Source: an uncultured Pelagibacteraceae bacterium (lineage in GTDB: Bacteria > Pseudomonadota > Alphaproteobacteria > Pelagibacterales > Pelagibacteraceae). Taken from it: 64,000 bases of DNA. The DNA is taken from the NCBI GenBank assembly GCA_902592985.1, contig CACJGR010000001.1, positions 124,001 through 188,000 of the forward strand, in the 5' to 3' direction. Below, one piece after another: positions 38,521-40,773 of this stretch (position 1 is the stretch's first letter; the number at the start of each line of letters is the position of its first letter). Under the pieces are notes generated by a model. That model was not told the DNA's origin, ran no database searches, and saw nothing but the letters and a program-made list of their open reading frames with translations. The position numbers and the translations under genes are program-made.

Positions 38521-39156
38521 ATGAAATCTGGAGAAATAAATTCTCTATTTAAGAATTTAAGCAAAGCTATAAAGAATCCTAAAAGTGATCTTAAATACAA
38601 AAATAAATTTACCCTTTTAGTATCAGTTGTTCTTTCAGCTCAGTGCACTGATGTTAACGTTAATAATGTCACTAAAAGTATTTATCCAAAATACAATAAG
38701 CCTGAACATTTTATTAAATTGGGACGGAAAAAAATTGAAAAATTAATCAAAAGTATTGGTCTTTTTAGAAACAAAGCTAAAAGTGTTTATTTATTATCAA
38801 AGCAATTAATCGAAAAACATGATGGAAAAGTTCCAAATAATTTTGAAGATTTATATGCTTTACCAGGAGTTGGAAGAAAAACTGCAAGTGTTGTATTAAA
38901 TGAAGGTTTTGGATTGCCTACAATTGCAGTGGATACACATGTGTTTAGAGTTAGCAATAGAACAGGTTTAGCCTACGGAAAAAATCCTGATGAAGTTCAA
39001 AAAAAATTGTATGAAGTAGTTCCTAAAAAATACTTAAAAAAAGCTGGTCATACTATATTGCTTCATGGAAGATACACTTGCAAAGCAAGGGCACCTTCAT
39101 GTAAGACATGTGTAATAATCAAATATTGTAAATACAACAGCAAGGAACTTAGATGA
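38521..39156 (+). CDS. nth: Endonuclease III (start corrected from 38500)
   Basis: LPGVGRKTASVVLNEGFG, VDTHVFRVSNRTGLA, C-terminal 4-Cys Fe-S cluster. Confidence 0.97.
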   Translation: MKSGEINSLFKNLSKAIKNPKSDLKYKNKFTLLVSVVLSAQCTDVNVNNVTKSIYPKYNKPEHFIKLGRKKIEKLIKSIGLFRNKAKSVYLLSKQLIEKHDGKVPNNFEDLYALPGVGRKTASVVLNEGFGLPTIAVDTHVFRVSNRTGLAYGKNPDEVQKKLYEVVPKKYLKKAGHTILLHGRYTCKARAPSCKTCVIIKYCKYNSKELR

Positions 39157-40082
39157 AAATATTAGGAATTGGAAACGCAATAGTAGATGTAATTTGTAAA
39201 GTAGAAAACAACTTTATAACTGATAATGGTTTAACTAAAAGCACAATGAAACTTGTGGATGAAGCTGAATTTAAAAAATTATTATCCAGCTTAAAAATTG
39301 AAGAAACGGTATCTGGTGGATCTGTTGCAAATTCTATCGTAGGACTATCTCAACTAGGTAATAAAGTAGGATTTATTGGCAAAGTAAATGAAGATGATCT
39401 TGGTGGTAAATATGAAGATGGATTAAAAAAAGAAAATGTAGAATATTTTTATTCGAAAAAAAAAGAAGAATTGCCAACCGGAACTTGTTTAATATTAATT
39501 ACTCCAGACTCTGAAAGAACTATGTGTACATTTCTTGGTATAGCAGGAAAAATAAATGAAAATGATGTTGATGTTAATGCTGTTAAAAATAGTGAAATTA
39601 CATTTTTAGAAGGATATTTGTGGGATGAGGGTGATCCTAAAAAAGCTTTTAATAAAGCAATTCAAAACTCAAATAAAGCGGCAATGTCATTATCAGATTT
39701 ATTTTGTGTAGAAAGACATAAACTTCATTTTTTAGATCTGGTTAAAAATAAATTAGATATTATTTTTGCCAATGAACAAGAAGCTCTATCTTTAATTGAC
39801 TCAAAAAATTTTGATGAAGTAATTTCATTTGGCAAACAGCTCGGAAAACTAATTGTTATTACTCGTGGAGAAAAAGGAAGTATAGCAATTCAAAAAAATG
39901 AAGTAGTTGAATGTGCTAGCAAAAAAAATTTAAAAATTATTGATTTAACAGGAGCTGGCGACCTTTTTGCAGCAGGTTTTTTGCATGGTCATGTTAACAA
40001 TTTATCTTTGAAGGAAAGCCTTGAAAAAAGCACTGAGATGTCATCTAAAATCATTCAAAAAATTGGAGCAAGATTAAATTAA
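39153..40082 (+). CDS. PfkB-family carbohydrate/adenosine kinase
   Basis: GNAIVDVICKVE, GGSVANSIVGLSQLG, DLTGAGDLFAAGFLHG. Confidence 0.93.
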   Translation: MKILGIGNAIVDVICKVENNFITDNGLTKSTMKLVDEAEFKKLLSSLKIEETVSGGSVANSIVGLSQLGNKVGFIGKVNEDDLGGKYEDGLKKENVEYFYSKKKEELPTGTCLILITPDSERTMCTFLGIAGKINENDVDVNAVKNSEITFLEGYLWDEGDPKKAFNKAIQNSNKAAMSLSDLFCVERHKLHFLDLVKNKLDIIFANEQEALSLIDSKNFDEVISFGKQLGKLIVITRGEKGSIAIQKNEVVECASKKNLKIIDLTGAGDLFAAGFLHGHVNNLSLKESLEKSTEMSSKIIQKIGARLN

Positions 40083-40186
40083 CTTTTTTTCCTTTTAAAA
40101 CTTCCTTTTCCTTTTTTTGGTTTAACTATTCTAGATCGGTACTTAGGAGATCTTAAATTCTTTGCAATTAAATTTTTTTTTTTCAT
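40079..40186 (-). CDS. arfA: Candidate 35-aa ArfA-like alternative ribosome-rescue factor, absent from the ORF track
   Basis: MKKKNLIAKNLRSPKYRSRIVKPKKGKGSFKRKKS; LRSPKYRSRIVKPKKGKGSFKRK aligns by eye to the ArfA core (..[23 protein letters not shown]..). Confidence 0.75.
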   Translation of the reverse strand: MKKKNLIAKNLRSPKYRSRIVKPKKGKGSFKRKKS

Positions 40187-40773
40187 TTGATAAAATATCC
40201 ATCATCATTACTTAAAATAAAATTATTATCTTTAAATTTATCATTGATTTTTTTTCTTAATCTATAAATATGTGTTTCAACTGTATGTGTTTCAAGTTCT
40301 AAAGAATAGCCCCAAACTTTATTTTGAAGAATGTTAACTTTTTGAGGTTTTTCATGATCATTAAGAAAAAGAATAATATCAATTTCTTTTTGTGTAAGTT
40401 TTAAATTTTGATTATTTTTTGTAATTTTTCTTGAATTTAAATCTAATATATAATCTTTAATATAAATATTAGATTGATAATTATATTTTTGTTTAATTAA
40501 GTTAACATTTAATATTTCCACTAATTTATCTATTTTTATTGGATATTCTGTAATAGAAAAAATTTTTTTTCTACTGATTTTTCCATTATTTAAAAAAACT
40601 TGTTTATCAGATTTTACCAAAATTAAAGAATCATTGAGATTCAAATTATTAGAATTTAAAAAATTTTCTTCATTTTTATAGTGTAAAATTTTAAATTTTA
40701 AATAATCCTTAATTTCATCCAAAATATTATATAATATTTTAAAATCAATAATGTGAATTGTTTGTTTGGCCAT
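40183..40773 (-). CDS. OmpR/PhoB-type winged-helix regulator with degenerate receiver-like N-terminus
   Basis: C-terminal trans_reg_C: LTQKEIDIILFLNDHE...VWGYSLELETHTVETHIYRLRKKI...GYFIK. Confidence 0.85.
   Translation of the reverse strand: MAKQTIHIIDFKILYNILDEIKDYLKFKILHYKNEENFLNSNNLNLNDSLILVKSDKQVFLNNGKISRKKIFSITEYPIKIDKLVEILNVNLIKQKYNYQSNIYIKDYILDLNSRKITKNNQNLKLTQKEIDIILFLNDHEKPQKVNILQNKVWGYSLELETHTVETHIYRLRKKINDKFKDNNFILSNDDGYFIK

Follow-up and report, generated by a model that had tools for sequence, protein, structure and literature searches.

The best described relative of the small gene reported here is Escherichia coli ArfA (YhdL, PF03889), a protein of 72 residues with a hydrophobic tail, whose gene carries an RNase III hairpin and overlaps at its stop with that of a convergent neighbour, mscL. 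The hydrophobic patch of this protein (L19, L24 and F25) binds Trp319 of RF2; W319, F217 and V198 of RF2 are the contacts that explain the RF2 dependence of ArfA, and truncation at N47 leaves ArfA active, whereas truncation after M40 inactivates it (PMC5378476). In Caulobacter the backup that has been studied is ArfB (YaeJ), which likewise rescues non-stop ribosomes in support of tmRNA but, unlike ArfA, has a GGQ hydrolase domain of its own. In a 2024 survey of 15,259 genomes, arfA was found in none of 2,376 alphaproteobacteria (PMC11633108). Among phages, gp30 of pelagiphage HTVC027P has been annotated as ArfA (PMC12753301), as has a protein of a Citromicrobium phage (PMC8953757). Among the papers searched, none links SAR11 chromosomes with ArfA, and the gene has probably been overlooked there because it is too short to notice.

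In the window (the whole 64,000-nucleotide stretch of DNA analysed), a minus-strand open reading frame (ORF) of 35 codons at 40079..40186 translates to exactly MKKKNLIAKNLRSPKYRSRIVKPKKGKGSFKRKKS, followed by TAA. On one side lies a convergent gene for a pfkB-family carbohydrate kinase (39153..40082, plus strand; PF00294, E 1.3e-43), and upstream, on the minus strand, a gene for an OmpR-type winged-helix regulator (40183..40773; Trans_reg_C, PF00486, E 2.6e-11). The ORF occupies the whole of the gap between these two genes rather than being loosely placed inside it, because its start and its stop both overlap the stops of its neighbours: the start shares an ATGA with the end of the OmpR-type gene (40183..40186, minus strand), and its TAA sits with the stop of the kinase gene in one TTAA palindrome (40079-40082). 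The stops of arfA and mscL in E. coli K-12 also overlap convergently, by 4 bases (L274, 1932-1935), a likeness to the arfA-pfkB pair that is probably coincidental. In the OmpR-type product the PF00486 match covers residues 122-187 only, and a Pfam search recognized no receiver domain; this gene (40183-40773) is kept upstream of arfA in relatives. The initial annotation had described an unlisted minus-strand ORF of 35 residues between pfkB and an OmpR-type regulator, and its coordinates, translation and TAA were all reproduced.

Profile searches make it near certain that the ORF encodes a true ArfA, in the minimal form found in Pelagibacteraceae. In Pfam-A the 35-mer matched a single family, ArfA (PF03889; E 2.1e-8, 33.9 bits against a curated cut-off of 25.5 bits), in agreement with the ArfA core that the initial annotation had recognized; five shuffles of its residues gave no Pfam match, and a search of the NCBIfam library with the 35-mer gave none either. 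The PDB chains of ribosome-bound E. coli ArfA align with it without gaps (E 3e-4 for the single sequence, 1.8e-6 with a SAR11 profile as query), over E. coli residues 12-42, and both the tail signature KKGKGS[YF]xRK and the Pro-x-aromatic-Arg-x-Arg element are shared. The ORF is the sole ArfA match in the source genome (1.14 Mb in 44 contigs, 83% complete).

A scan of named genomes gave at least 478 confirmed relatives, and the best 80 of these all belong to Pelagibacteraceae or Pelagibacterales, so that the window can be assigned to SAR11. Nearly all of the best 80 sit between the same two neighbours and, wherever the neighbours fall on the stretch fetched, arfA follows the OmpR-type gene and faces pfkB in convergent orientation. 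An own stop codon is present in 80 of these 80; counted from the first K of KKGKGS it lies 11-19 residues on, and exactly 12 in 58 copies, which accords with the proposal that this ArfA is naturally short. Ten columns are invariant across 31 SAR11 copies, KKGKGS and R32 among the invariant positions; in 107 distinct sequences N5, L11, K22, KKGKGS and R32 are invariant in the protein despite differences in codon; pN/pS averages 0.245, and dN/dS is about 0.2. The ORF is under purifying selection, and the conservation in relatives that the initial annotation had proposed to check, with dN/dS, is present. The very short reading frame and six junctions that lack the gene (see below) might suggest that the ORF is what remains of a longer, degenerating ArfA, or that it is a lysine-rich frame that arose by chance in AT-rich DNA, but either reading is hardly credible: decay is ruled out by a dN/dS of about 0.2 and the fixed stop position, and chance by the negative shuffles, synteny, invariant core and coding selection.

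At a threshold of E 0.001, 45 of 101 genomes (source genome included) contain a match, all in one genus, with none in the other family of Pelagibacterales searched. The gene is thus widespread in SAR11, the most abundant bacteria in the ocean, in a class for which the survey lists none. Eight match-less genomes of the same genus had a readable pfkB junction (ten more gave no pfkB match, and their junctions were unreadable): two of the eight carry an arfA below threshold and six have no gene, and the equation of a missing match with a missing gene was accordingly rejected as a general rule. At the six arfA-less junctions the OmpR-type gene ends near pfkB in five; in one, from a SAR11 genome (L084), the place expected for arfA is taken by another gene, coding for 202 residues (890-1498). 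On the pfkB tree, a single gene tree with open forks and partly weak branch support that is a weak basis for loss counts, the absences require at least five changes; a single loss, with the arfA-less genomes as one clade, was rejected (AU p 4e-5). The gene thus seems to have been lost repeatedly in SAR11, and is therefore probably a backup that is not essential everywhere. Two genomes of another genus in the family, G198 and G475, have arfA at a different site, between genes that read as symporter-like and photolyase-like ORFs.

The source genome encodes a tmRNA of alphaproteobacterial type (223.7 bits; ARAGORN tag ANESYALAA) and SmpB. Only two of its proteins, RF1 and RF2, carry an RF-1 domain, and five complete one-contig Pelagibacteraceae genomes (three with arfA, two without) have two such proteins each; ArfB, a GGQ RF-1-domain protein of about 140 residues, was therefore not found in the source genome (83% complete) or in these five. 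RF2 keeps the switch-loop tryptophan W319 (in IGWG), F217 (in HTSF) and the neighbouring strand, with V198 replaced by Ile; RF1 has no switch-loop tryptophan. The genome-wide check proposed in the initial annotation thus yielded ssrA, smpB and an ArfA-compatible RF2, and no ArfB. Its view that an ArfA is noteworthy in a lineage centred on tmRNA and ArfB holds for the ArfB-less SAR11, a case in which ArfA, and not ArfB, is the only visible backup; it needs qualification, since arfA occurs in a few alphaproteobacteria outside SAR11 as well, and two of these show the classical in-ORF hairpin. Matches to ArfA occur in 10 of 385 sampled alphaproteobacterial genomes, three of these being Pelagibacteraceae.

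Residue i of SAR11 ArfA corresponds to residue i+9 of the E. coli protein. A putative RF2-contact region lies at residues 5-21 and a basic tail predicted to fill the mRNA channel, KPKKGKGSFKRKK, at residues 22-34. This tail is retained, with a higher density of lysine than in E. coli. The C-terminus corresponds to E. coli K44 and so falls between the inactive M40 and active N47 truncations; a protein ending here is for this reason likely, and not proven, to be active. E. coli residues 1-9, which include contacts to 16S rRNA and S12, have no counterpart here, and the hydrophobic tail of the E. coli protein is missing too. Unlike in E. coli, two residues of the RF2-binding patch are replaced: L19 corresponds to N10 and L24 to K15, and the aromatic alone is kept (F25, Y16); across SAR11 the two replaced positions hold Asn/Asp/Glu and Lys/Arg, and the position of E. 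coli L20 is an invariant Leu. These polar and charged residues could indicate a factor for stalled ribosomes with a different choice of partner, for example RF1 as well as RF2, as Francisella ArfT reportedly uses; such a choice is unlikely, however, given that RF2 retains its tryptophan, F217 and the neighbouring strand and that RF1 has no such tryptophan. A rescue function of the 35-residue ArfA is very likely on these comparisons, and its exact use of RF2 likely. On a ribosome that has stalled at a broken message, the basic tail would occupy the vacant mRNA channel and NLIAKNLRSPKYRSRIV, the N-terminal segment, would dock onto RF2, including its switch-loop tryptophan; release of the peptide by RF2 would then need no stop codon. 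The SAR11 gene offers a natural minimal ArfA.

Folding and a terminator search were applied to the 3' half of arfA with 38 downstream bases (40041..40140, minus strand). No RNase III-type hairpin was found by folding in the window arfA or in five SAR11 relatives, and no intrinsic terminator-like site in the window arfA region: fold z-scores were +1.4 to +1.8 for overlapping stretches of the window and -0.6 to +1.1 for the relatives, whereas the same procedure recovered the hairpin of E. coli arfA (z -3.7). These results agree with the earlier description of a TAA directly after the basic core and no obvious hairpin. By contrast, two arfA genes of other alphaproteobacteria (L071 and L073), which also match PF03889 and share a KGKGS/KGKAS core, have a longer ORF that contains a long hairpin with a U-run behind it, as in the classical non-stop design; z is only -1.7 to -1.8 for these hairpins, but their layout is clear. 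Alphaproteobacterial arfA genes therefore do not lack the switch in general. Nor is a hairpin-less ArfA unprecedented, since Schaub et al. (2012) reportedly noted a minority of arfA genes without a predicted hairpin. At the sequence level, the non-stop switch is lost in SAR11 arfA, and the protein may be constitutively active.

At 65 of 72 named loci with an adjacent upstream gene, the arfA start, set by rule rather than experimentally, either shares 1 or 4 bases with the upstream stop or comes immediately after it, which suggests that arfA is translationally coupled to the OmpR-type gene. An 11-A run (40173-40183) at the arfA start is a possible slippage site. Together with the start overlap, this run leaves some room for an ArfA still held in reserve and not constitutively active, through control of the OmpR-type operon, RNA decay in an AT-rich message or slippage on the run; the convergent pfkB overlap could moreover act antisense, as reported for E. 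coli arfA-mscL (PMC10070815). Such control is a real but less probable option, as neither hairpin nor terminator was detected and an own stop is always present. We consider it decidedly probable that SAR11 has a minimal, unswitched, RF2-dependent ArfA made from an ordinary stop-containing message and translationally coupled to the OmpR-type gene. Such an ArfA would be present while tmRNA works, as a standing second rescue route replacing the missing ArfB, and would provide a test of the need for a non-stop switch in streamlined genomes.

At least 191 confirmed relatives were found in IMG/VR. On two phage-like contigs the encoded protein is MKRKNIIAKDLMSKKYKPRIVKPKKGKGSFKRK, which ends at a stop codon of its own and resembles the host copies very closely, and cultured phages, pelagiphages among them, carry relatives as well; a tblastn search of cultured phages with the host 35-mer returned almost nothing, the longer phage version being needed as query. 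HTVC027P gp30 is likewise a PF03889 protein, carried by a phage of SAR11, but unlike the host protein it has 58 residues and a longer N-terminus (with relatives of the MPGKWDGRSR type), and its gene adjoins that for the small terminase. The comparison of host and phage copies rests on 30 residues, too few to settle the direction of transfer. Why viruses should carry factors for ribosome rescue is a question prompted by these copies. Other IMG/VR relatives belong to DUF7230 (PF23876), which has the first 25 residues in common with ArfA (hhalign 97.6%) but no KGKGS, and is probably a sister family. The close relatives on phage contigs and in phages from culture, and a related family without KGKGS, could also mean that the SAR11 protein came from a phage and binds ribosomes as a cationic peptide for some other purpose, for example to modulate translation in infected cells; that its place in the chromosome is fixed, and that most of the family conserves it, makes this quite improbable. 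A wider version of the rescue account is more tentative, and we hold it at somewhat below even: SAR11 would keep two non-stop routes standing, one by tmRNA and one by a minimal ArfA without the switch, instead of the tmRNA and ArfB of other alphaproteobacteria, and would share the gene with marine phages, where a larger ArfA-like family, DUF7230 included, would also act on the stalled ribosomes of the host. At L216, L220 and comparable viral loci, the phage proteins of DUF7230 have the N-terminal half (NLVAKDLRTPKYRMRVV) in common with ArfA, and at the viral loci L207, L217 and L231 an ArfA-type core is joined to a C-terminal NKAGNYTKPTMRKRLFEKIKAG...GQWSARKAQ segment.
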